Source: a virus. Taken from it: DNA of 42,970 nucleotides. The notes beneath the pieces are model-generated. The model saw only the letters and a list, made by a program, of their open reading frames with translations, ran no database searches and was not told the DNA's origin. The translations under genes and the position numbers were made by a program. The number at the start of each line of letters is the position of its first letter. Positions within the stretch are counted from its first letter, which is position 1. This document shows positions 3,068 to 42,970 of this stretch, one piece after another. Location: IMG/VR virus record IMGVR_UViG_3300006175_000271, positions 1 through 42,970 of that record; one strand, given 5' to 3'.

Positions 3068-3475
3068 GTGATCAATTTCAACGGCCAAAACCTAATGTGC
3101 TTGCACGAATGGCCGCGGGCCGATGCGCCCAAAATCCACGCGCAACGCAATCAGTTCCCAGGCATCTGGGGCGAGTCGCAGATTTTGTTAGGCGTCGGCG
3201 GACGCGACATCGCGATCAATGTCTGGCTGACCGATCCCAGCTTCACCACCGCGCAAGCCGTCGATAACTACCGCGCGGGGTTTGACCTGTCCGTCGGCAC
3301 GACCGCCGGCTTGCAGATCACCGGCAGTGCGCCTTCACAGTGGGGCGACGTCTGTTTTGACGGCTTCGAGCCGACCGGCTCCGTCCTGCCCTGCATCGGC
3401 GGCGATCCACTGATGAAGACCGGCACCTTCTGGCAACCCGGCGTGCTTCACTTCCACCAGTTAACAGTTCCGTAG
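3068..3475 (+). CDS. Putative distal tail protein
   Basis: About 135 residues, beta-rich, without a recognisable catalytic motif. I chose GTG 3068 because GGAGG (3055-3059) sits 8 nt upstream; an ATG at 3053 in the same frame lies inside the tape measure gene and has no such signal. Position between the tape measure and the large tail-tip protein fits a distal tail or tail-tube adaptor. Its stop codon TAG overlaps the first base of a GGGTTCA array. The function is inferred from position only. Confidence 0.65.
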   Translation: MINFNGQNLMCLHEWPRADAPKIHAQRNQFPGIWGESQILLGVGGRDIAINVWLTDPSFTTAQAVDNYRAGFDLSVGTTAGLQITGSAPSQWGDVCFDGFEPTGSVLPCIGGDPLMKTGTFWQPGVLHFHQLTVP

Positions 3476-3569
3476 GGTTCAGGGTTCAGGGTTCAGTGAC
3501 GCGCAAGCGGAAATTCCTTCCCCCCGTATTTCCTGAACCCTGAACCCTGAACCCTGAACCCTGAACCCT
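3475..3569. repeat. Palindromic heptamer element (GGGTTCA)3 - loop - (TGAACCC)5
   Basis: The left arm of GGGTTCA units (3475-3496) and right arm of TGAACCC units (3532-3569) can form a perfect long stem. The 35-nt loop (3497-3531) begins TGACGCGCAAGCGGAAATTC. The same loop, inverted and with three differences, lies between the arms of the element at 40673. The right arm leads into ATG 3572 without a Shine-Dalgarno sequence. Confidence 0.9.
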
Positions 3570-3571
3570 CA

Positions 3572-5515
3572 ATGCCCTCCAGAGCCGCCACTCCCGTCCA
3601 AGTGCTGATCGATGGTTCGCCGGATGCGAACCTGCGGCCGATCAGCGTGCGCAGATCGAGCGGCGGCAAGCAACGCGATGAAGCGAGTTATCTGGTCGAC
3701 CTCGGCGCGCAGGGCGAATGGATCCAGAACCTGGCGATGATTCCCGGCGGAGCCGTCTGCCAGATTGTCGCTTACCCCAACGGCGTCGAGACCACGCTGC
3801 ACTGGGGCAAGGTCGATGTGACATCGATCGCCATCGGCGAAAACGAAATGCTCACCTTCACCTCGCGCGTCGAGCCGTATCACTTCGGCCAGGTGATGGA
3901 CGGCGTGCAAGTCTGGGAGCCGGTCAGCGCGCAGCTTATCACCCTGCAAGAGGAGCTGGTCTTCAATCCAGAAATCGACGACCAGGTGCTTGCGAACCAG
4001 TCGGGCCAGTATTGGCAGTTCGGACTCGCGCCCACCATCCTCGATCCCGAAAGCGTACGCACGCCTGCGGCCAAAACAGTGCAGGGCGATACCGCGCAGT
4101 TCTGGACGCTGCAAACCGCCGTGGCCTATCTGTGCTGGGCGCTGAACCCCGCGCAGACCAATATCAAAAACCCTTCGGCCGCCACAATCCTGTTGCTTCC
4201 TCAGTGGCCGCTCAATCACTTCAAGCTCGAGCGTGGCCAATTCCTGCCCGACTATCTGGACGATCTGCTCACGCGCTTCGGCCTGGGTTGGTATCTCGAT
4301 CTGAGTCTTGGGACGCCGCAGATTGCTTTCTTCGCCCGCGGCCTGGGCGACGCGAACACGGTTTACCTCGGCACGCCCGGCGCGCTCTTTAGCGGCGACA
4401 ACGCGCTCGACACCGACCTGCACTACGACGTCGGCAATACCCGCAACCAGGCCGTTGTCGTCGGCGACTGGCACTATGTCGAGAGCACGTTTGCATTGCA
4501 AAAAGGCTGGAAGTCGTCGCTCGACAACACGGCCGAATCAAAACTCTCCAAAGACTCGCCCGACTTCGAGAACGTCGCCAATCCTTATCGCGATGTGTGG
4601 CGCAAGTTCGTCTTGAACGAGGCCGGCGACTATGTCGGCACGCGATCGGAAATCACTAGCCCCTTTGATTTTTCCAGCGTCGTCGGCCATGCCTGCGCGC
4701 CGCGTCGCCGGCGGTTTCTGCCCTGCATCGCGCAAGACAACGACGGCGCGCCGTTCGGCCGCTACGCCGGCTGTTTTATCGAGTTCTCGATTGACGGCGG
4801 CAGCACCTGGTCGAGCGTCGAAACGCTCGAAGACCGCACCTGCGTGATTCTGGATCGCGAGTGCGGCATCCGTTTCGATGGCCTGTTTCCTCCGCCCGAG
4901 TTGCGCCGCGCGGGCCTTTCGCTCGGCAACTATGATTTCACCAACAAGGCCCGCGTACGCATCACGGCCGTGATGCGCGACGATCAGCGATTGCGAGCGA
5001 TCGTCGGCCCGAACGCCGACAGCCCCTTAGTCGACGTGGCGCCGTTCCACGTCGACGCCTCGGCCCATTTTCACTGGCGCGAGATCCTGCCGTCGAGCCA
5101 GCTCTACAACGACGTCTTAAGCGGCGAGATTCCTTCGGGAGTCACGAACGACCTGCAACCGCTAACCGACTACGCCACCTGGTTGCAGCAGCAGTTCGAC
5201 GTGGGCGACGTGCACGGCGGCATTCTGGTCGAGGGTCTCGACACCGCAGGCATCGCCGGCCCTTACGACATTGGCCAGCTCGTCACGTCGATCGCCGGCC
5301 GCAACATCAATCTCAACGCGCAGTCGATCTTCAGCGGCGAGCAGCGCTATCCGCAGATTGTCGGCATCTCGTTCGACTTTCAGCGTCAGACCCGCCGCCT
5401 GCACTTAGAAACCTTCCGCGACGAAGAGCCGCTTTACGCCGAGCACATCCGCGCGGCCGCGATGGAGAGGAAGATGATCGCCAGGGCCTCGCGTGGCAAG
5501 CGGAGGGGCCGATGA
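3572..5515 (+). CDS. Tail-tip / baseplate hub protein
   Basis: A 647-residue beta-rich protein. Its first 250 residues look like the hub fold of tail-associated proteins (gp27/gp44-like): short beta strands with repeated LxxPxxI and WxFGLAPT segments. Middle residues contain FSIDGGSTWSSVETL, a BNR-like or carbohydrate-binding style motif. The C-terminus is a basic tail (KRKMIARASRGKRRGR-like). It follows the tape measure and distal tail genes and overlaps the next start by ATGA, so it sits in one tail operon. The ATG lies three bases after a TGAACCC array with no Shine-Dalgarno sequence. Function inferred from size and order. Confidence 0.65.
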   Translation: MPSRAATPVQVLIDGSPDANLRPISVRRSSGGKQRDEASYLVDLGAQGEWIQNLAMIPGGAVCQIVAYPNGVETTLHWGKVDVTSIAIGENEMLTFTSRVEPYHFGQVMDGVQVWEPVSAQLITLQEELVFNPEIDDQVLANQSGQYWQFGLAPTILDPESVRTPAAKTVQGDTAQFWTLQTAVAYLCWALNPAQTNIKNPSAATILLLPQWPLNHFKLERGQFLPDYLDDLLTRFGLGWYLDLSLGTPQIAFFARGLGDANTVYLGTPGALFSGDNALDTDLHYDVGNTRNQAVVVGDWHYVESTFALQKGWKSSLDNTAESKLSKDSPDFENVANPYRDVWRKFVLNEAGDYVGTRSEITSPFDFSSVVGHACAPRRRRFLPCIAQDNDGAPFGRYAGCFIEFSIDGGSTWSSVETLEDRTCVILDRECGIRFDGLFPPPELRRAGLSLGNYDFTNKARVRITAVMRDDQRLRAIVGPNADSPLVDVAPFHVDASAHFHWREILPSSQLYNDVLSGEIPSGVTNDLQPLTDYATWLQQQFDVGDVHGGILVEGLDTAGIAGPYDIGQLVTSIAGRNINLNAQSIFSGEQRYPQIVGISFDFQRQTRRLHLETFRDEEPLYAEHIRAAAMERKMIARASRGKRRGR

Positions 5516-6027
5516 GCGATCGCGACAGCGTGCGCAGGAGAGGCGATTTTGGCCAGCCGACGAATCTGGCCCTGCGCCGCTACAAGCTCAACGCCACGCT
5601 CTCGGCCGGCTCGAACGCGCAAGCGTACTGGGTGATCTGGGATCCCAAAGCCACCCCCGCCAAGTATGTCGCGCTCGACGGCACGGGCGGCTATATGAAC
5701 GACAGTTTCACGCTCTACTCGGGTCCGAACAATTTCACGGGCGGCAGCGGTGATTTTGGCTACGCGGCTTACTTCACCGACCGCGGTCAGTGGGAGCCGA
5801 TCGGCGGTGGCCTGGCCGCCATTGCCATCGCCACACTCACCGCCACGCTCAATCAGGGAGGTAGCGGAGTGGCGGCGACATACGTCGTGGGCGGCAGCGG
5901 GAGCGTCACGGGCGGCGTCTCTGATGCAATGCTTTGCACGGGTGATTCAATCGCCTCAGGCGCAACGATAGTCATCGCCAAAATCTCCGGCACGTGGTAC
6001 GTGATCCAGGCCGTCTGCCCCTGCTAA
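5512..6027 (+). CDS. Tail appendage / minor structural protein
   Basis: 171 residues. The ATG overlaps the previous stop (ATGA), so it is translationally coupled to the tail-tip protein. The second half is Gly/Ser/Ala/Thr-rich with short beta repeats (GGSGSVTGGVSDAM) and ends in CPC. It looks like a surface or receptor-contact protein of the tail tip. No enzyme motif is visible. Confidence 0.6.
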   Translation: MSDRDSVRRRGDFGQPTNLALRRYKLNATLSAGSNAQAYWVIWDPKATPAKYVALDGTGGYMNDSFTLYSGPNNFTGGSGDFGYAAYFTDRGQWEPIGGGLAAIAIATLTATLNQGGSGVAATYVVGGSGSVTGGVSDAMLCTGDSIASGATIVIAKISGTWYVIQAVCPC

Positions 6028-6030
6028 ACA

Positions 6031-6678
6031 ATGGGATCTCCGCGTTTCAAATTTCCCGTAGGGAAGGGCAATCCGACCGGCTATTACAGCGGCTACCCCT
6101 GCTGCTGTGGTTGCAAGTGTTGCGCGGCTGGACAGCCTCAAGAAATCACCGTCACGATTAGCGGAGGAAATTTCGGGCCGTGCAATGGAACGCTGGAGCA
6201 GTGTCTGTGCTACGGCTTCGGCATCACCTGCAACGGCGGACCATGCTTCAGCGCACAGACCACCTGCCTGCCGGTATCGCCGAACTCGCTGAACGGAACC
6301 TACCTCCTGCAGGCATCCGCACCCTGCACCTGGAGTGGAACCTTTTCGACAGGCTGGACCGTGAACGGCAACTATTGCTACACCGACTGCCACGGCACCG
6401 GCCAATCGACAACCGCACAATTTTTTCTCGACATTACCGCCGGCATCGCCAACGTGAGCAGCGCGAATTGCGCAGGTCAATCGTGGTCGCTGCACGTGCG
6501 ATCCTACCTGGCCGTGACGACATTAACAGGTGGCTTCTTCGGTCCCTGCACTCCCATCAACCAGCAATTGCAATGCTCGTCGGGCGTCAGCACCGGAACG
6601 GGCACGAGCAAAGTCTATCAATGCTCCGGGTTTTCTCCGGTCACGATCAGCGGCGGCTTCGCCACAATTTCACCGTGA
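6031..6678 (+). CDS. Cys-rich tail-tip surface protein
   Basis: 215 residues with more than twenty cysteines, including YPCCCGCKCCAAG near the N-terminus and later paired Cys (CNGTLEQCLCYG, CYTDC). Between them are Ser/Thr/Gly-rich beta segments and an LNGTYLLQ motif. I have seen similar LNGTY-containing Cys-rich proteins in planctomycete-type genomes, so this may be a family tied to that host. The cysteines suggest a disulfide- or metal-stabilised exposed domain. There is no signal peptide. It lies three bases after the previous gene in the tail operon, so a virion role is likelier than a secreted one. Receptor binding is a guess. Confidence 0.6.
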   Translation: MGSPRFKFPVGKGNPTGYYSGYPCCCGCKCCAAGQPQEITVTISGGNFGPCNGTLEQCLCYGFGITCNGGPCFSAQTTCLPVSPNSLNGTYLLQASAPCTWSGTFSTGWTVNGNYCYTDCHGTGQSTTAQFFLDITAGIANVSSANCAGQSWSLHVRSYLAVTTLTGGFFGPCTPINQQLQCSSGVSTGTGTSKVYQCSGFSPVTISGGFATISP

Positions 6679-6679
6679 C

Positions 6680-8221
6680 ATGATGAACGAATGCCTCTGG
6701 CGCCGAACCGCCAATACAATCACTTGCGAAACTTGCGGCTACTCGAGGACTTGGCCGCCGAGCAGCGATCTTCCCCATCGACCCTGCACAGCGAAACCGC
6801 AGCCACAAAGACTGGCCATGGCCGTGGGCCCCGGCGAAGAGCTGGCCAATCTGATCGAGCTCGCCGGACTGTCAGACCTCTGTCGTCGCTGCCAGTTCCG
6901 CGCCGATCAAATGAACGCCTGGGGGCCGTCTGGCTGCCGCGAGCGACTTGCTGAGATTTCCGCCTGGCTGCGCGAGAGTTTTTGGAAGCTCGATTGGCGA
7001 AACAAGCTCAAGGCCGCAAAAGCGCTTCGCCCCTTCGTGCAATCCACGCGGCCGATCGAAAGCTTGGTCGAACTGGCCATCGCGCGCGCCGAGATCGCAG
7101 CTTGGAACCAGTCGGAGATCAGTCCCTCCGACGCACTGGAGTTCGCAGCCCGCGTGCCGTGCCGGGTAGTCGATGCCGCGCATTTGGCAGAAGAATTAGC
7201 CAATACGGCCGCCGGGAACGCACTGCAATGGATTGACGATGGCCGGCACGACTGTCGCCTGCCGATTGAGATCGTGCGCGTGACGGGCACGCCAAGCTGC
7301 TTTGCCCAGCCGGGCGGCGCCTACCTCGACTGCCGCCCGGCGCCGCGGCTGCCACCCATCGGGAAAGTTTGCCGCATCGATCAATCGGCCGGCTTCGGCG
7401 ACGCGGTCGCGCTGTCGGCCGTGCTCAGGCACCTGCGTCATTACCATCCTCGCGCGCGGCTGGAGGTAGTCACCGAACCAGACCGGACGGCTCTCTACAG
7501 CACGAGCGTTCCAGACCCGACGCTCGGCCGACCATTGGTGGATCGAATTCTGTTTCGCGACACCGCTGCTTGGTGCACGCACCCGCTGTATCCCTGGCCC
7601 GGTCATTCGCGCAGTTTCCGCGGCTGCCCGAGCACGCCCGTCGAGCACTGTCTGGTCGACCGCCTGGGCCTGCAGCCCGTGCGCGAATTGTGTCATTACT
7701 GGGTACCGGGGAGGGTTCAGGGTTCAGGGTTCAGGGTTCAGCGCTCTGTAGAGAACGGACTGCGTGCGGTTCCGTCCGCCCTCTGCCACTTCGCTGGCGA
7801 GCATCGTAAGCCCCAGAAGAACCTCACCCTCGAGCAGCAATCCGAAGTCGCCTGTCAGTTGCGATGTGCCGGCTACGGCGTCCACGTGCTCGGCGAGGAC
7901 ATCTCCGCCTCGAATGCCGCCGAGCTGATCGACCTGATTCAATCCTGCGACCTGTTCGTCGGCGTCGACTCGGGACCACTGCACATGGCCAGCGCACTGG
8001 GCAAGCGCGCGATCGGCCTCTGGACCTACCTTTCACCCCTGCACTGCTTTTGCCCGGACTCGACGACGCACCACCTGTTATGGCGCGGGCCTGCGCAGGA
8101 TTATGAGCGTTGGCGGATTTGCCGGCCCGTTGACGACGGTCTCGCCTTCTTCCGCGCGAACTACCGATACAGTTGGTGCGACACTTTCGGCGAAGGAATG
8201 GCCAATGCGTTACACTCCTGA
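6680..8221 (+). CDS. Cys-cluster domain fused to GT9-type glycosyltransferase
   Basis: About 513 residues from tandem ATGs at 6680/6683. Residues 1-120 carry a Zn-binding style region (CETC, later CRRC) and the pattern GPGEELANLIELAGL...WGPSGCRERLAEISAWLRES, a small domain common in planctomycete-type proteins. From about residue 230 the sequence matches glycosyltransferase family 9 (heptosyltransferase-like): RIDQSAGFGDAVALSAVLRH at the start of the first Rossmann-like domain and FVGVDSGPLHMASALGKRAI near residue 427 in the sugar-nucleotide site. It could modify host surface glycans or a virion protein. A GGGTTCA array interrupts residues 345-355 in frame. It overlaps the methyltransferase gene by 17 nt. 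Confidence 0.72.
   Translation: MMNECLWRRTANTITCETCGYSRTWPPSSDLPHRPCTAKPQPQRLAMAVGPGEELANLIELAGLSDLCRRCQFRADQMNAWGPSGCRERLAEISAWLRESFWKLDWRNKLKAAKALRPFVQSTRPIESLVELAIARAEIAAWNQSEISPSDALEFAARVPCRVVDAAHLAEELANTAAGNALQWIDDGRHDCRLPIEIVRVTGTPSCFAQPGGAYLDCRPAPRLPPIGKVCRIDQSAGFGDAVALSAVLRHLRHYHPRARLEVVTEPDRTALYSTSVPDPTLGRPLVDRILFRDTAAWCTHPLYPWPGHSRSFRGCPSTPVEHCLVDRLGLQPVRELCHYWVPGRVQGSGFRVQRSVENGLRAVPSALCHFAGEHRKPQKNLTLEQQSEVACQLRCAGYGVHVLGEDISASNAAELIDLIQSCDLFVGVDSGPLHMASALGKRAIGLWTYLSPLHCFCPDSTTHHLLWRGPAQDYERWRICRPVDDGLAFFRANYRYSWCDTFGEGMANALHS
7713..7741. repeat. GGGTTCA array inside the GT9 gene
   Basis: Four GGGTTCA units lie inside the open reading frame and encode RVQGSGFRVQ. The frame stays open, and the conserved GT9 segment FAGEHRKPQKNLT follows about 25 residues later, so the array sits in an interdomain linker. 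Confidence 0.9.
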
Positions 8222-10320: not shown

Positions 10321-10759
10321 AAAAGACCTCCCTCCAAACGACAGCGGCCCCGCGCGGCATGCTGGGCCGGGAAGCCTAGCGCCGCGCAGGGCCGCGTGGA
10401 TTGGTGTTTGGCTTCCCGGCCAGCAACCATCATCGCGCGCACCTTCCGTTCCGTCAACGATTTGCGACCTGAAAACCGTGCGCGGTTTTCGTGTCTGCGG
10501 CATGCCGCCGGTTCATTTCCCAGATTGCCAGTCGGCAGTTTCCGCGCTCAATCGGCAGGCTCAAGCGGCAGTTTCTGCGCGATCGAAATGCAAAACTAAA
10601 AACGCAAACGCAAAATACAAAATGGGCAAGCCGATAAAGCTGAACAGGGGCCGGGGTTCAGGGTTCCGGTCACGCGCTCAAAACCACTCCTGCCTTGGTC
10701 GCTGTTGACCCTGAACCCTGAACCCCAAACCCAAAGTCCGCCGCAGGCTACAAACCGCC
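10321..10759. other. Divergent intergenic region with hairpin and degenerate repeats
   Basis: This gap separates the minus-strand pseudopilin from the plus-strand gene at 10760. It holds an inverted repeat (10361-10376 with 10410-10424; GCCGGGAAGCC / GGCTTCCCGGC), a degenerate A-rich run of GCAAAA-like units (10588-10622), and two pieces of the GGGTTCA family. No coding frame in it convinced me. Promoters for both flanking genes should lie here, but I cannot place them. Confidence 0.6.
10654..10726. repeat. Short GGGTTCA/TGAACCC inverted pair
   Basis: GGGTTCAGGGTTCC at 10654-10667 faces CCCTGAACCCTGAACCCC at 10709-10726 across about 40 nt. It is a degenerate version of the palindromic element at 3475. 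Confidence 0.75.
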
Positions 10760-11344
10760 ATGGCCGCAGAGACGACACTTCACGAGCGACCCGAGCCGTC
10801 AGACGAAGAAAAGAAAATTCGGCTGCGGGCCATCGCCGCAGACCTGCGCAATTTCAGGCGCTACTGGATCGTCGTCGGCAGGCTACTTTGGGAGGTGCTG
10901 CGCGACCGCCTGTATCTACTCGAGGCAGCCACCTTTGACCAGTATCTCCTGGGCCACGGCTTCAAGCCGCGAACCGGTCGGGACCTGGTCGCAGGTGCTC
11001 GAATCGCGAAACGAATCAAGGACGTCCCTCACGAGCTCAGTCTCCGCGCTGCGCTGCAGCTTGCGCCGCTGCCCGACGATCTCACGGCCAAGTGCCTGGC
11101 TGAGGTGATCCAGCAGACGGGCACCGAGAGCCCCACTGCAAAACAGGTGGCCGAAATCGTGGCCAGGTGGCCGAGGCGTGCGGACGCCAACCACAAACCG
11201 CGGAAGAAGCCCAAGGCCAGGCCCAAACCCTGGCGGCAGCGGTTCGCCGGCGGCGAGATCGTCGTACGATTAAAAGCCGGCGTCGACCTGCGGGCCTTGC
11301 TGCTGGAGGCAATCGCGCGAATCGATGCCCAAAAGGTTGCTTAG
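10760..11344 (+). CDS. Hypothetical protein, possibly nucleic-acid binding
   Basis: 194 residues, highly charged. Residues 20-60 are helical (RNFRRYWIVVGRLLWEVLRD). Residues 70-130 contain FKPRTGRDLVAGARIAKRIK and a possible helix-turn-helix (TAKQVAEIVARWPR). A basic linker (KPRKKPKARPKPWRQR) precedes a C-terminal beta/helix segment EIVVRLKAGVDLRALLLEA. The layout resembles ParB- or repressor-adjacent DNA-binding proteins, but I do not recognise the family. It is followed closely by the exported protein at 11385. Confidence 0.6.
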   Translation: MAAETTLHERPEPSDEEKKIRLRAIAADLRNFRRYWIVVGRLLWEVLRDRLYLLEAATFDQYLLGHGFKPRTGRDLVAGARIAKRIKDVPHELSLRAALQLAPLPDDLTAKCLAEVIQQTGTESPTAKQVAEIVARWPRRADANHKPRKKPKARPKPWRQRFAGGEIVVRLKAGVDLRALLLEAIARIDAQKVA

Positions 11345-12173: not shown

Positions 12174-12205
12174 GATGAGGGATGAGAGATGAGGGATGAG
12201 GGATG
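12174..12205. repeat. GGGATGA heptamer array
   Basis: Units of GATGAGG/GATGAGA repeat with a 7-nt period just after the terminator. The same family is inverted at 13306 and 22184. Confidence 0.85.
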
Positions 12206-13305: not shown

Positions 13306-13338
13306 ATCCCTCATCGCTCATCTCTCATCCCTCATCGT
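13306..13338. repeat. TCATCCC heptamer array
   Basis: Units of CTCATC(C/G) repeat with a 7-nt period, the reverse orientation of the array at 12174. TTCAA occurs on both sides, which may be a short duplication. Confidence 0.8.
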
Positions 13339-20940: not shown

Positions 20941-22176
20941 GTGGAACAAAGAAAAAATGCCAGCGACAACGCCCAGCGGCTAGAATGGATCGAAGCCGAC
21001 GAGCTGCGTCGCCTGGTGTGGCAAACCAAGTGGCGGCTGCCGCCCAAGCCAAACCAGCCGGAGAAAAAGCCGCGACGGCTTTCCGGCGAAGCTCGCTGTG
21101 CCTGGTGGGTGCTATGGTGGGACCTTGGTTTGTGGCGCGGCGGCGCGCTCGACGTGACGGCCGCCCAGATCGCCACGGCGATCGGCGATAGCGACAGCCG
21201 CGGGGGCCGGCGGGCGATCGAGGCCCTACGTGACGCCGGCCTGCTGGGCATCGACGCCAGAGAAAAACAAGTAACGGGGCGTTATACCGTCTTCATGCCG
21301 GACCCACGGGACGTCCGTCGCGGACGTCGCCAGGCGAGCGACGGCCAGGTCGAACTGTTCGATGATGATCACATCGAGCAGGGCGAGACTGAGCCAGGAT
21401 CGTCCCCCGTGGCCGATCGGGTGTCTGAGTTCGACAGCGCCGCTGTCAACGCCGACCCGGGCACTCCTCCTGTTTCCAACGGGAGGAGTGTGCGCTTTGC
21501 GGACCGGTCGGCGGCGCCCATTGGCGTCGTCGCCGCGGCGGATGTTGCACAACATCCGCCGCCGGATGTTGTGCAACACCTTGCGCAACATGTTGCGCAA
21601 CATCCGCCGCCGACCGCGCATCTCCAGGGGAGGAGCTCCCCCGCGCGAGAACGACTTGAAGACTTGGACTTGAAGGGAAACATTTTTCCCAACTTGGGTC
21701 TTGAAAGACTTGAGACTTATAGCGCGCAAGTTCAAGTAACGGTTAGAGGCGCCAGCGGCGGCGGAAGTGGCGCAACATCCGCCGCGGGCCTGCCGACCAC
21801 CGCCGCGCTGCCAAAGGCCGCCGCGGCTGCCAGCGGCGAACCGGCGAAGGTCGGTGACCTGTTCTCGCAGGTCATGTCGGCGATCGATGGCCGACGGGGA
21901 ATCGCTTTCGCCACGTCGCTGTGTGCGATCGTGCCGGACCTGTGGGGCGATTGGGCCGACGAGCTTGGCCGCGAGCTGGATGGCGGCCGCGACGCTGAGC
22001 ACGGAGGCGAACCGACTCCCCTGTCGACGCGGGAGGTCGCGCGTCTCGTCGTGGCCGAGGCGAAACGCAAGCGGAGAGACCGGCCGGCCGCGGTGTATTT
22101 CACCGGCGCCGTGAATCTCTGGCTGCAAGAGCACGGCCGCAAGCGAATTTTCATCAAGCCACGTCAGCCGAGGTGA
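20941..22176 (+). CDS. Putative replication initiator (winged-helix, lambda O-like layout)
   Basis: 411 residues from GTG 20941 (AAGGA eight bases upstream). A longer frame from 20614 is a shadow of the previous gene. Residues 25-120 look like a winged helix: CAWWVLWWDLGLWRGGALDV, TAAQIATAIGDSDSRGGRRA, IEALRDAGLLGIDAREKQVT, RYTVFMPDP. The middle 130-270 is a low-complexity linker that encodes QH repeats over a cluster of palindromic DNA repeats. The C-terminal 290-410 is helical (VGDLFSQVMSAIDGRRGIAF; STREVARLVVAEAKRKRRDR). The layout (DNA-binding N-terminus, repeats inside the gene, C-terminal interaction domain) is that of lambda O. Alternative: a regulatory winged-helix protein. Confidence 0.6.
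   Translation: MEQRKNASDNAQRLEWIEADELRRLVWQTKWRLPPKPNQPEKKPRRLSGEARCAWWVLWWDLGLWRGGALDVTAAQIATAIGDSDSRGGRRAIEALRDAGLLGIDAREKQVTGRYTVFMPDPRDVRRGRRQASDGQVELFDDDHIEQGETEPGSSPVADRVSEFDSAAVNADPGTPPVSNGRSVRFADRSAAPIGVVAAADVAQHPPPDVVQHLAQHVAQHPPPTAHLQGRSSPARERLEDLDLKGNIFPNLGLERLETYSAQVQVTVRGASGGGSGATSAAGLPTTAALPKAAAAASGEPAKVGDLFSQVMSAIDGRRGIAFATSLCAIVPDLWGDWADELGRELDGGRDAEHGGEPTPLSTREVARLVVAEAKRKRRDRPAAVYFTGAVNLWLQEHGRKRIFIKPRQPR
21535..21750. other. Candidate replication origin: iteron-like cluster plus AT-richer stretch
   Basis: Four copies of the palindromic core (G/C)TTG(C/T)(A/G)CAAC start at 21544, 21568, 21580 and 21592, spaced by 24, 12 and 12 nt. The first sits in a 28-nt palindrome (21535-21562). 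TTGCGCAACATGTTGCGCAA at 21581-21600 is a perfect palindrome. A partial fifth copy is at 21769. Downstream, 21645-21745 is AT-richer, with repeated GACTTGA units in both orientations. The arrangement resembles lambda ori inside gene O. The period of 12 also encodes a tetrapeptide repeat, so a purely coding origin of the repeats is possible. Confidence 0.5.
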
Positions 22177-22233
22177 CCATGCCGCATCCCTCATCCTTCA
22201 TCTCTCATCCCTCATCCAGAAAGTGACCATGCC
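22173..22233. repeat. TCATCCC array flanked by an 11-bp direct repeat
   Basis: GTGACCATGCC occurs at 22173-22183 and 22223-22233, on either side of a CTCATCC heptamer array (22185-22218). The duplication looks like a target-site duplication or replication slip made when the array entered. The upstream copy still carries GAGG before its ATG; the downstream copy does not. Confidence 0.85.
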
Positions 22234-22646: not shown

Positions 22647-24284
22647 ATGTCAACCGTCGTAAAACGCCGTAGATTCAAAGAGCCACAAGCGGAGCGGCCG
22701 AAGGTCGCGGAGAATGCCCCGCAGATCAACGGTCGCTCGAATAGCCTCCAATGTGAAGCGTGCGGAGCGTGGACTTTCTATGACCCGGAGGAGCCCGATC
22801 TTCTCTGCGCCGCGTGCAGCGTCAAGGCTGAGAACGGCGTGATCGTGTGCGTCGACGGCGAATGGAAGGCCGCCGAGCTGCCCAGCCTGGCCGCCGAATT
22901 CCGCGACGGCTTGCCCTCGCTCTCCAATCGCCGGCGACACGACGACCGCACGCTCTCGACGGCGACGCCCAGCGGCATCGCGATCCATGCCGAGGACGTT
23001 GCCCCGCCGGTGCACAAAGGCGGCGTCAGCCCGGCAACGGAAGAAAAAAATAGGCGAAATGGCAGGCGGCCGCAGGCCATGCTGCCCGACGATTGGAAGA
23101 TCAAGATCGACCCGGAGTTTCGCGATTTGCTCGATCCGCTCGATCCCATCGAACTCGAAAAGCTCCGGACCGATTTACTGGCCCACGGTTGCCTGGATCC
23201 GCTGATTGTGTGGCGATGCACGGGCCACATGGCCGGCCTGGGCGACACGCATCCGGCCGCGCGTATCCTGCTCGACGGCCACAACCGCTACCAAATCTGT
23301 TATGAGCATCGCATCCCCGTCGAGATCGTTGAGCTCGAATTCTCCAACCGCGCCGAGGCCCTCACTTGGATGCGAGACCACCAGGTCGGCCGCCGCAACT
23401 TGTCGATCGAAAAACGCAACGAGCTTTTGGCCCGCGACTATGCGGCGGAGATTGAGCGACGGAAGAATGGGCAGAAAGAGAAGGGGCAAAAGAACGGGAA
23501 GGCCGCGGCCGTCGTCGCCAAAAAGCACGACGTCTCGCCGGCCACGGTCAAGCGAGCGGTGCAAACCGACAGAGCCCGCGACGCGATCGCGAAGATTGTC
23601 GATCGTCCGCGGCAACAGCTACCGGCGATGACCGATGATGAGGCGAAGACGCTCGCGAAGCTTCCCCGCCATCAAATTCACGAGGCTGTAAGACGCGGCA
23701 CGACTGCCATTGAAACACTCGTAAAAAGTTTCAAGGCGACGACGGTGCACGACACCGTAGTCGTTCCCTTCTCGAAAGGCGAGAAGTGTAAGGCGAGCTT
23801 TGTGATCGTCGAGCAAGATGGCCGCTGGTTCCATTTCGAGAATTCCAGCAACGCCCGCGGCGGAGGCGTCACCAGCTATTCGGCTGACGATATTCGTCGT
23901 GGCGAAGGGCTGAGCGGTCTCGAAATCGGGCAAAAATTCCGAAGTCGCGAGGCGTGCTTGCAAGCCGCGGCGAAGGATATCGAGCGCATGGCCGTCGCGC
24001 AGGGTAATAAGTGTTGGCCGCCGACGGCTCTCAAGGTCATTCGCGAATGGCGCGCTTCCCTGCCCCAGCCGGGAGCGAGGAAGAAAACTCGCGCCAAGGC
24101 GGACCGTGAGCTGCGCGAGGAAGCGACAAAGCACATTGAGCGGTACCTCGACACGATCGACCCGGCCGAGGCCGCCTGGCAGCAGAGCGATTACCTTTTG
24201 GATGCGATCAACCTCTGGCGCAGCCGCCGCAAAGGCGCACGCACGATGAAGGCCGCCAAGACACGGAGGCCAAAACCGCGATGA
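22647..24284 (+). CDS. ParB/Spo0J-like protein with N-terminal Zn ribbon
   Basis: 545 residues, AGGAG upstream. Residues 35-60 hold a Zn ribbon (CEACGAWTFYDPEEPDLLCA ACS). Residues 145-260 are the ParB N-terminal domain: ELEKLRTDLLAHGCLDPLIV, LLDGHNRYQICYEHRIPVEI (ParB catalytic/CTP-type region) and TWMRDHQVGRRNLSIEKRNE. A helix-turn-helix follows (VAKKHDVSPATVKRAVQ). Residues 350-450 are an unrelated beta domain. In phages such proteins act in partition-like DNA binding or transcription control. Linker repeats NGQKEKGQKNGK resemble the GGGCAGAAAAAT repeat family. Confidence 0.82.
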   Translation: MSTVVKRRRFKEPQAERPKVAENAPQINGRSNSLQCEACGAWTFYDPEEPDLLCAACSVKAENGVIVCVDGEWKAAELPSLAAEFRDGLPSLSNRRRHDDRTLSTATPSGIAIHAEDVAPPVHKGGVSPATEEKNRRNGRRPQAMLPDDWKIKIDPEFRDLLDPLDPIELEKLRTDLLAHGCLDPLIVWRCTGHMAGLGDTHPAARILLDGHNRYQICYEHRIPVEIVELEFSNRAEALTWMRDHQVGRRNLSIEKRNELLARDYAAEIERRKNGQKEKGQKNGKAAAVVAKKHDVSPATVKRAVQTDRARDAIAKIVDRPRQQLPAMTDDEAKTLAKLPRHQIHEAVRRGTTAIETLVKSFKATTVHDTVVVPFSKGEKCKASFVIVEQDGRWFHFENSSNARGGGVTSYSADDIRRGEGLSGLEIGQKFRSREACLQAAAKDIERMAVAQGNKCWPPTALKVIREWRASLPQPGARKKTRAKADRELREEATKHIERYLDTIDPAEAAWQQSDYLLDAINLWRSRRKGARTMKAAKTRRPKPR

Positions 24285-28977: not shown

Positions 28978-29460
28978 ATGAAATCGCGCACCGCGTCTTA
29001 CCGGAAGGAGTGCCACGGCGTGAACGGTAGCGACGAGTGGTACACGCCGATCGAACTGATCCGTTCGCTGGGCGAGTTCGATCTCGATCCGGCCTGCGGA
29101 CCGCAGTGCACCAACCGCACGGCTCGCCGGCGCTATGGCGTGAACGGCCTCGAGCGGGAATGGTTCGGTCGCGTGTGGCTTAACCCGCCGTTCAGTTTTG
29201 TGCCTCCCTGGGTCGACAAGATGATCGAACACAATAACGGCGTGATGCTGGTCTTCGGCCGCGTCGACGCCGTTTGGTTTCAGCGTGCTGCCCAAGCCGC
29301 TTCGGGAGTCTACCTGCTTCGCGGCCGGGTGCAATTCGATCGGCCCAACGGTTCGACCGGCCGGTGCCCGCTTGGCTGCGTGCTGTTCGGTTTCGGCGCC
29401 GCGAACCGCCGCGCCATCCAGCGCTGCGCATGGCCGGGAACCTGGCTCAGTGCCAACTAA
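28978..29460 (+). CDS. Phage-type DNA N6-adenine methyltransferase
   Basis: 160 residues from ATG 28978; the frame opens further upstream at an ATG created by the repeat array (28909). The motif set is that of phage Dam-like enzymes: NGSDEWYTPIELIRSLGEFD LDPACGPQCTN, then VWLNPPFSFVPPW (the NPPF catalytic motif), VMLVFGRVDAVWFQRAAQA and LRGRVQFDRPNG. It probably protects phage DNA from host restriction by methylating adenine. It lies between the terminase and portal genes. Its stop codon is part of a CCACTAA array. Confidence 0.85.
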   Translation: MKSRTASYRKECHGVNGSDEWYTPIELIRSLGEFDLDPACGPQCTNRTARRRYGVNGLEREWFGRVWLNPPFSFVPPWVDKMIEHNNGVMLVFGRVDAVWFQRAAQAASGVYLLRGRVQFDRPNGSTGRCPLGCVLFGFGAANRRAIQRCAWPGTWLSAN

Positions 29461-29508
29461 CCACTAACCACTAACCACTAACCACTATCCACTGCCCACT
29501 CTCCACTC
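29456..29508. repeat. CTAACCA heptamer array
   Basis: Units of ACTAACC turning into ACTATCC/ACTGCCC/ACTCTCC lead straight into ATG 29509 with no Shine-Dalgarno. The stop codon of the methyltransferase is in the first unit. The reverse-complement arm of the same family is at 34418. Confidence 0.88.
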
Positions 29509-29766
29509 ATGCCCATCTTCCGCAACCGCGAGCAACTGTTTGACGGAGAAATACTCGGCCGGCGGATCGAGGCGTTCCTGTCGCGAACCAATAACGCCCT
29601 GGCCAACGTGGCCAAGGCCCTGCCCGACTTCGAGGTCGAGGGCATTGAGGTCTCGCTCACGATCGACGCGGGTCTCAATGTCGCCTTCTCCGGCATCGGC
29701 GGGAGTGTCAGTCGCGACCGCACGTTCAGCTTCACACTCAAGCCGAAGAATCGGGCAGAAAAATGA
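29509..29766 (+). CDS. Small beta-rich protein
   Basis: 85 residues. N-terminal helix FRNREQLFDGEILGRRIEAF, then a beta segment EGIEVSLTIDAGLNVAFSGI GGSVS, ending LKPKNRAEK. The end resembles small trypsin-co-occurring (trypco-like) domains, a weak resemblance only. The stop codon and last residues come from a GGGCAGAAAAAT repeat. Confidence 0.58.
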   Translation: MPIFRNREQLFDGEILGRRIEAFLSRTNNALANVAKALPDFEVEGIEVSLTIDAGLNVAFSGIGGSVSRDRTFSFTLKPKNRAEK

Positions 29767-34594: not shown

Positions 34595-35326
34595 ATGAGT
34601 CAAAAAATTGTAGTCGTCGACGAGGACTTCAAGGGCGCGGCCCTGGATGCCAAGTGGTCGACGCACACCACAAAGACGGCCGGCACGCCGACCGTCTCGC
34701 AGGTCAGCGCCGGCTCCGGCGCCGACACGGCGGCCGACGGCGGCGTGAACCTCACGCTCGACAGCACCGCCGAGGTGCAGGTCGCCACGCTGTTCATGGG
34801 CGACGTGCTGCCCTACCCACTGGCTTCGCTCGTCTCGATCGACTTCTGGGCCTCGCTCACTGCCTCGATCGATTCGCACGTCAGTGCGGCATTTGGCGTC
34901 ACCGGCGCCCGCAACGACACGATCGCCTCGATCACACAGCGGGCCTTGTTTCGCACCGTGGGCGGTTTTTCCGCCGGCAATAACGAGCTCTTGTGTGAGA
35001 GTGCCGACGGTACGAATTCTCTCACGCAGCAAGACAGCGGCCTGACGCTGGCCGCCACCAAGCGCCGCTGCCGCATCAATTTCATGGAGGGGATCGTCAC
35101 CCAGACGCCCAACCTTTCCACCGGCAGTCTGACGAACCTGATCTTCGAAGCCGAAAACAGCCGCGGGCAACTGCGGCGATTGTTGCGGAACAAGCAGTTC
35201 AATATCTCGGCCGGTACCGGCGGCATGCAGATTTTCGCCCAGATCCAGAAGACCTCGAATGCGGCCGTGGGCACGCTCACGATCCACCGCGTCCGGCTGG
35301 CCTTCCGCGAAGGCGTAAATCCGTAA
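34595..35326 (+). CDS. Beta-rich head-associated structural protein
   Basis: 243 residues, almost all beta strands and turns (VDEDFKGAALDAKWSTHTTK, VATLFMGDVLPYPLASLVSI, IFAQIQKTSNAAVGTLTIHR). The layout is that of a jelly-roll/lectin-like domain. Directly after the capsid gene it may decorate the capsid or be a tail-fibre type protein. No active site visible. Confidence 0.62.
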   Translation: MSQKIVVVDEDFKGAALDAKWSTHTTKTAGTPTVSQVSAGSGADTAADGGVNLTLDSTAEVQVATLFMGDVLPYPLASLVSIDFWASLTASIDSHVSAAFGVTGARNDTIASITQRALFRTVGGFSAGNNELLCESADGTNSLTQQDSGLTLAATKRRCRINFMEGIVTQTPNLSTGSLTNLIFEAENSRGQLRRLLRNKQFNISAGTGGMQIFAQIQKTSNAAVGTLTIHRVRLAFREGVNP

Positions 35327-35335
35327 GAGCGGCCA

Positions 35336-35372
35336 GGGTTCAGGGTTCAGGGTTCAGTGACGCGCAAGCGGA
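35336..35372. repeat. Half of a palindromic heptamer element
   Basis: Three GGGTTCA units (35336-35357) followed by TGACGCGCAAGCGGA, the first 15 bases of the loop at 3497, but no right arm. The loop fragment leads into GGAG and ATG 35379. Confidence 0.85.
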
Positions 35373-35378
35373 GTCCCC

Positions 35379-35816
35379 ATGCCGCCGAGTGCCACGACGT
35401 TTGCCGGGGCGCGAGCCGAGAATTTCCAGAATGTGTTTCTGGGCTCGAACGGCTTCGCCCAGACGATCAGCCAATATCCGAAGGGCGTTGGGACGGACGG
35501 CAATCCACCGTCAGCGCCTTACACCTTCGCCGTCAACGTGACGGCGCTCGTCCACAAAGAGGAGGAGGGGGAAACACCGGTCGACGACCAGGACGGCAGC
35601 CGCGTCGTGCGGTGGATCGTCATCACGCTGGCCACAGCGGGGCAACCGGGTGGAGTGACGGTCACGATCGCCGAGCGCGGCCAGCAACGAGATCTGTTCC
35701 TGATCGACGGAGAGATTTGGCACGCGGAGAAAATCGTCAGCCGCACGGCCTACTGCCAGCGCGTGCGGCTGAAGCGTGAGGAAGCGGCCAGCACCAAGAA
35801 AACGCGCGTTCGCTGA
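35379..35816 (+). CDS. Putative head-tail connector
   Basis: 145 residues with GGAG five bases before ATG. Beta-rich (YTFAVNVTALVHKEEEGETP, GVTVTIAERGQQRDLFLIDG, YCQRVRLKREEAA). It has the length and composition of head-tail adaptor proteins and lies between head and tail genes. Not recognised by motif. Confidence 0.55.
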   Translation: MPPSATTFAGARAENFQNVFLGSNGFAQTISQYPKGVGTDGNPPSAPYTFAVNVTALVHKEEEGETPVDDQDGSRVVRWIVITLATAGQPGGVTVTIAERGQQRDLFLIDGEIWHAEKIVSRTAYCQRVRLKREEAASTKKTRVR

Positions 35817-40670: not shown

Positions 40671-40672
40671 GA

Positions 40673-40880
40673 GGGTTCAGGGTTCAGGGTTCAGGGTTCA
40701 GGAGATACGGGGGGAAAGAATTTCCGCTTGCGCGTTACTGAACCCTGAACCCTGAACCCTCCCCTGAACCCTGAACCCTACCCCGAACCCTGAACCCTGA
40801 ACCCTGAACCCTGAACCCTCGCCCGAACCCTGAACCCTGAACCCTGAACCCTGAACCCTACCCCGAACCCCGAACCCTCC
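40673..40880. repeat. Largest heptamer array, palindromic with inverted loop
   Basis: Four GGGTTCA units (40673-40702), then 40703-40737, which is the reverse complement of the 3497-3531 loop with three differences, then some 15 or more TGAACCC units with CTCCC, TACCCC, and CGCCC interruptions down to ATG 40882. It is the only intergenic gap here over 200 nt between virion genes. Confidence 0.92.
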
Positions 40881-42943: not shown

Positions 42944-42970
42944 CCTGAACCCTGAACCCTGAACCCTATG
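42944..42970. repeat. 27-base terminal repeat identical to window start
   Basis: Bases 42944-42970 equal 1-27. This is what an assembler leaves at a circular or circularly permuted genome. The repeat content means coincidence or mis-joining is not excluded. Confidence 0.9.

Follow-up and report, generated by a model that had tools for sequence, protein, structure and literature searches.

In the genome of an uncultured virus, a 32-bp array of TCATCCC-type heptanucleotides separates two exact copies of an 11-bp sequence, GTGACCATGCC, at the junction of two genes. The arrangement is most economically read as an insertion of the array, together with an 11-bp duplication, into a formerly compact junction; this much of the original prediction stood, while its wording as direct evidence was too strong for a conclusion drawn from sequence. 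We infer that the insertion is younger than a compact ancestor and, regarding the route, lean more cautiously towards a template switch with an 11-bp back-step, by which the array would have been copied in. The source is an IMG/VR record of 42,970 bp with 62% G+C, the whole of which was analyzed and is referred to here as the window; it encodes a GpA-type terminase, a portal protein and a protease-capsid fusion. Best cellular matches of the terminase were found in Planctomycetota, whose genomes yielded only matches of 30-32% identity, and a planctomycete host is possible, since this resemblance (32%) is closer than that to GenBank phages (28%). Scans of IMG/VR with the terminase, the upstream gene of the junction, the gene at 22647 and the capsid fusion retrieved no relative of the phage, and GenBank phages offered no match to either junction protein, only terminases of at most 28% identity. 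Neither the IMG/VR nor the GenBank phage searches brought up the junction without its array, in this phage or in a close relative, which counts against the insertion reading.

The predicted duplication proved exact, with its two copies exactly 50 bp apart and no other exact occurrence on either strand of the 42,970 bp; TGACCATG occurs just once beyond these copies. According to the ORF list, it spans a stop and a start as had been claimed, the upstream TGA lying in copy 1 and the downstream start in copy 2 (Table 1). Collapse to one copy does restore a compact GAGGTGACCATG junction with a good Shine-Dalgarno (SD) motif: with a single copy between the two flanks the sequence becomes GCCGAGGTGACCATGCCCGTCGTG, in which GAGG, stop and start lie within 12 bases. 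Many array-free junctions of the phage are similarly compact (ATGA or a few bases), which favours insertion, and at four array-bearing junctions (10708-10760, 22176-22229, 29460-29509 and 35326-35379) the gap from stop to start is 48-52 bp, in a junction list for which genes were picked by hand from the ORF list. The upstream ORF had no Pfam or PHROG match, and neither database held a family match for the downstream ORF, a small CxxC-containing protein with an ATGA overlap with the next gene. The array itself is a degenerate, not a pure, TCATCCC array, and RNA folding of the array junction is unremarkable (z -0.95).

Table 1. Features of the array junction and the two sister arrays in the window.
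Feature	Position	Strand	Remarks
Upstream ORF, 520 aa	20614..22176	+	TGA stop in copy 1; ORF list
SD-like GAGG	22170..22173	+	5 nt before the ATG of copy 1; spacing read from sequence
Duplication copy 1, GTGACCATGCC	22173..22183	+	Stop TGA 22174-22176, ATG 22179
15-codon open frame, MPHPSSFISHPSSRK	22179..22226	+	Starts at ATG in copy 1, ends at TGA in copy 2 (22224-22226)
Filler G, one base			Left of array, between copy 1 and array; sequence
Heptamer array, 32 bp	22185..22216	+	CATCCCT CATCCTT CATCTCT CATCCCT CATC
Filler CAGAAA	22217..22222	+	Right of array, before copy 2; sequence
Duplication copy 2, GTGACCATGCC	22223..22233	+	Has the start of the downstream gene
Downstream ORF, 64 aa	22223..22417	+	GTG 22223 (62 aa from ATG 22229); ORF list
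Sister array	12174..12205	-	31/32 identical; third unit CATCTCT and ends as at 22185
Second sister array	13306..13336	+	94% over 31 bp; third unit CATCTCT and right end as at 22185

As a control for chance, the same array flanks were compared after displacement by 60-330 bp. Of ~9,940 such comparisons, 18 gave an exact, complex match over 11 bp or more, i.e., 0.2% per array or about 0.03 for 17 arrays, a rate which is not negligible and counts against the insertion reading. Over 497 distinct arrays from all loci fetched, the flanks showed an exact, complex match over 9 bp or more in 14 cases (2.7 expected) and over 11 bp or more in five (0.9 expected); the window scored just 8 in this count, because the scan set the array edge inside the duplication. 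When stop contexts of the phage were paired with start contexts of unrelated genes, 4 of 1681 pairs shared 11 bp or more. Since matches of 11 bp are rare among displaced flanks as well as among context pairs, chance is an unlikely source of the duplication, and the flank match taken alone constitutes moderate evidence. Matches at L141, L093 and L419 turned out to be long-unit tandem repeats, not clean duplications. Clean flanking duplications were recognized at about five (~1%) of the 497 arrays, namely in the window, L128, L097, L070 and L035, and this low number, too, weighs against insertion.

A simple period scan detected 17 period-7 arrays in the window and 0-2 arrays for each other period from 4 to 12. 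They belong to the families CCCTGAA, TCATCCC, ACTAACC, AAGCCCT and CCTCCGA and, like heptanucleotide simple sequence repeats (SSRs) of the STRR type, consist of head-to-tail 7-bp units in at least about three copies, above chance. The three TCATCCC arrays are 94-97% identical and have length, ends and the third unit CATCTCT in common. In other loci this unit accounts for 4 of 1054 CATCNNT units, and in none of 250 other arrays does it stand between normal units, figures that have to be read with the bias against variant units near the match, as most comparison loci were picked by a pure 20-mer pattern. Judged by the shared length, ends and rare third unit, the arrays at 12174, 13306 and 22185 are copies of one sequence, and the common CATCTCT indicates that the array was moved or copied as a unit. 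No other evidence independent of the flanks speaks as strongly for the array having been brought in. Small dispersed repeats, too, are characterized by several copies per genome that are nearly identical and end alike. The arrays at 12174 and 13306 have no flanking duplication of at least 8 bp, which leaves it at one of three copies, and the 32-bp array shows no palindrome and no terminal inverted repeats; a fixed-length duplication and terminal inverted repeats, as expected of a DDE/IS-type element, are thus lacking.

A second type of repeat, 89 nt long and 97% identical, is dispersed as a unit in inverted copies (3474-3562 and 40672-40760). This pair and the three TCATCCC copies show that array-bearing short sequences disperse inside the phage genome. 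At 3474-3569 and 40672-40760 a 35-bp core is placed between inverted AGGGTTC/CCTGAAC arrays, in two copies of opposite orientation, with a half copy at 35335-35372, and the whole looks like a miniature element with heptamer arrays as its ends. Contig L235, which has the 18-bp core of the element at 3497 in common with the window, was discarded, the match lying in coding DNA and being due to chance. The direct terminal repeat of the record (27 bp; 1-27 and 42944-42970) is itself a CCTGAAC array, and a call of circularity or completeness based on it could therefore reflect an assembly artefact. A 20-bp palindrome, CGGGGCTCACCGTGAGCCCC, is present in four copies in the window (12233, 25281, 35907 and 42632), possibly as terminators or operators.

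Flanking duplications were also met with in other loci. In L097 (Saprospiraceae) a GTGAGT(N) array at 5172-5249 lies between TTGAGCGAATCGCCCAAGGATT and TTAACCGAATCGCCCAAAGATT, and in three loci of the same genus (L222, L223 and L226; flanks 74-79% identical) the upstream gene ends with TESPxxC once and the array is absent. By this comparison the empty site predicted for insertion with duplication is seen in an organism unrelated to the phage, and these array-free relatives with a single motif copy favour insertion. The layout of the phage junction recurs in L035, with CCAGAAAGCC, a GATAGCT array, ACC and CCAGAAAGCC-ATG in succession, and likewise in L128 and L070, which also speaks for insertion. 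Duplication lengths vary, being 10-13 bp where exact (13 bp in L128, 10 bp in L070) and about 22 bp in the imperfect case of L097, and filler bases occur. Relatives of L128 did not present an empty site; other arrays occupy the same spot. L032 was rejected as a further case: what had looked like duplicated flanks is a composite array duplicated in tandem (105 bp) within the linker of a portal gene. This composite joins two heptamer arrays and is translated (5827-8109 of the locus) as part of the linker in a Mu gp29-like portal protein.

The template switch towards which we lean would have started from a compact ancestral junction with overlapping SD, upstream stop and downstream start. DNA synthesis would have left its template once GTGACCATGCC had been copied, would have copied an existing TCATCCC-type array, for which this single genome offers suitable donors at 12174 and 13306, and would then have gone back to the first template, 11 nt upstream of the exit point, copying GTGACCATGCC again. 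The expected product is an array plus seven filler bases between two 11-bp copies, the first keeping stop and SD, the second the downstream start. Insertion as such is favoured by exact 11-bp flanks that are unique in the window and rare in controls, and by the array being one of three near-identical copies in the genome. Template switching or repair is preferred to a transposase cut of fixed length on account of the variable duplication lengths and the fillers, and with a sister array at hand as donor it fits best.

Transposition, in which the 32-bp array would be a non-autonomous element moved in trans and the 11 bp a target-site duplication left by a staggered cut, would agree with three copies of identical termini and with the exact direct repeats that enclose one copy. 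It is nevertheless quite improbable, because a staggered cut predicts a duplication at all copies and of one length, whereas two copies lack it and lengths differ between cases; moreover, filler bases separate array and repeat, and 32 bp without terminal inverted repeats hardly suit such an element. We regard as no more probable a local origin, with an 11-bp tandem duplication or slippage of CATGCCG as seed and subsequent growth by 7-nt replication slippage: the CATGCCG at 22178 keeps the phase of the array and is taken in by the period scan, arrays elsewhere change by whole units, and the phage arrays at 10708 and 29456 overlap a stop codon with matching sequence, but independent growth would not repeat the rare third unit, the length and the ends of the arrays at 12174 and 13306, nor does slippage of CATGCC give CATCTCT at the same place three times. 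Most improbable is that the 11-mers merely resemble each other as stop/start contexts (TGACCATG) by chance or functional convergence, with no duplication, as TGA and ATG may be shared through function and a few context pairs do match over at least 11 bp, but no annotated gene uses the ATG in copy 1 or the TGA in copy 2, which leaves at least 8 of 11 letters unexplained by function, and GTGACCATGCC is confined to two places in the window.

The insertion would have had a notable side effect on the reading of the junction. TGA-CC-ATG is present on either side of the array. Read in this direction, TCATCCC is free of stops in all frames, and because the spacing also keeps register, a 15-codon open frame links both stop/start pairs; one third of insertion lengths would put such a relay frame in register. 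A terminating ribosome could go from stop to start twice through this frame, and translation of the downstream gene could thereby stay coupled. The frame is plainly present; its translation is suggested more guardedly.

Elsewhere, arrays were seen to arise or change in other ways. In pairs of Herpetosiphon species with 93% identity, arrays differ by steps of 7 or 14 bp or by rearranged intergenic sequence, and about 325 kb of alignment revealed no clean empty sites, the intergenic regions being saturated with repeats. In alr, murF and ispD of rumen Prevotella, arrays fill a variable segment that is taken up in relatives by unrelated inserts, other arrays among them; no duplication is visible at these sites, which point to replacement at recurrent variable spots and not to clean insertion. 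That close genomes show replacement or 7-/14-bp changes without duplication counts against the insertion reading, and these arrays demonstrate more than one route of origin, with the flanking duplication as a minority signature. The Prevotella arrays lie in frame within these conserved genes (L050 699-729 and 132-160; L125 1835-1867). In Herpetosiphon giganteus (L131/L158-L176) different heptamers are chained within a tract, e.g., TTTTGAC, TATGTTC and TCATCCC, and period-9 arrays are frequent as well (21 in 370 kb). TCATCCC arrays of Zavarzinella formosa (G007; L236, L244, L110 and L137) mostly stand in pairs of inverted orientation, 40-80 bp from each other, which form long potential hairpins; in some pairs the complementarity is perfect, variant units included.

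Heptanucleotide SSRs are abundant in bacteria, as the STRR of cyanobacteria and GGGNATC in Xanthomonas and Nostoc (PMC4692102) or TAACTGA in Beggiatoaceae (PMC4679880). Both studies treat distribution and possible roles of heptamer repeats, and the latter reported no evident transmission mechanism. The phage arrays resemble these SSRs in being of period 7, head-to-tail, of few units, mostly intergenic and near stops or starts, and differ in the flanking duplication, the near-identical dispersed copies and the stop/start relay; in neither study did we find flanking target duplications, near-identical array copies in a phage or such a relay. Small dispersed repeats of cyanobacteria, thought to be mobile (Elhai et al. 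2008, as cited in PMC3116915 and PMC2884548), are about 20-30 bp long and, as far as these citing papers describe them, comparable in being very short and dispersed within one genome, whereas the phage unit is a heptamer array. With REPIN/MITE-type miniature elements (PMC3116915) the 32-bp array shares its shortness, intergenic position and multiple copies, but not a palindrome or terminal inverted repeats, REPINs being made of paired palindromic REP units that go with a RAYT transposase; the element at 3474-3569 with its inverted arrays comes closer to that layout. Template-switch mutations have been described in yeast (PMC5677150) and E. coli (PMC7202029) at hairpins and quasipalindromes. 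The process proposed here likewise comprises exit of the polymerase from the template, re-entry and a short sequence change, yet it would copy a distant array instead of a hairpin or quasipalindrome. Heptamer arrays and tiny mobile repeats were accordingly already known, and the flanking duplication is the new part, as the literature searched yielded no account of heptamer arrays with target duplications.

These observations bear on the question why 7-bp arrays abound between bacterial genes and recur in distant phyla. It is a speculative and rather unlikely generalization that heptamer arrays across bacterial phyla and phages spread as tiny copy-in sequences, sometimes with duplications of 10-27 bp, and that in the phage the duplicated overlapping stop/start built a translatable relay mini-ORF coupling two genes. 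A flanking duplication would mark the birth site of an array, predict each base of the empty site and tell an array that was copied in from one that grew by slippage. A duplicated stop/start, as in the phage, may moreover let a compact operon tolerate the insertion of an array.
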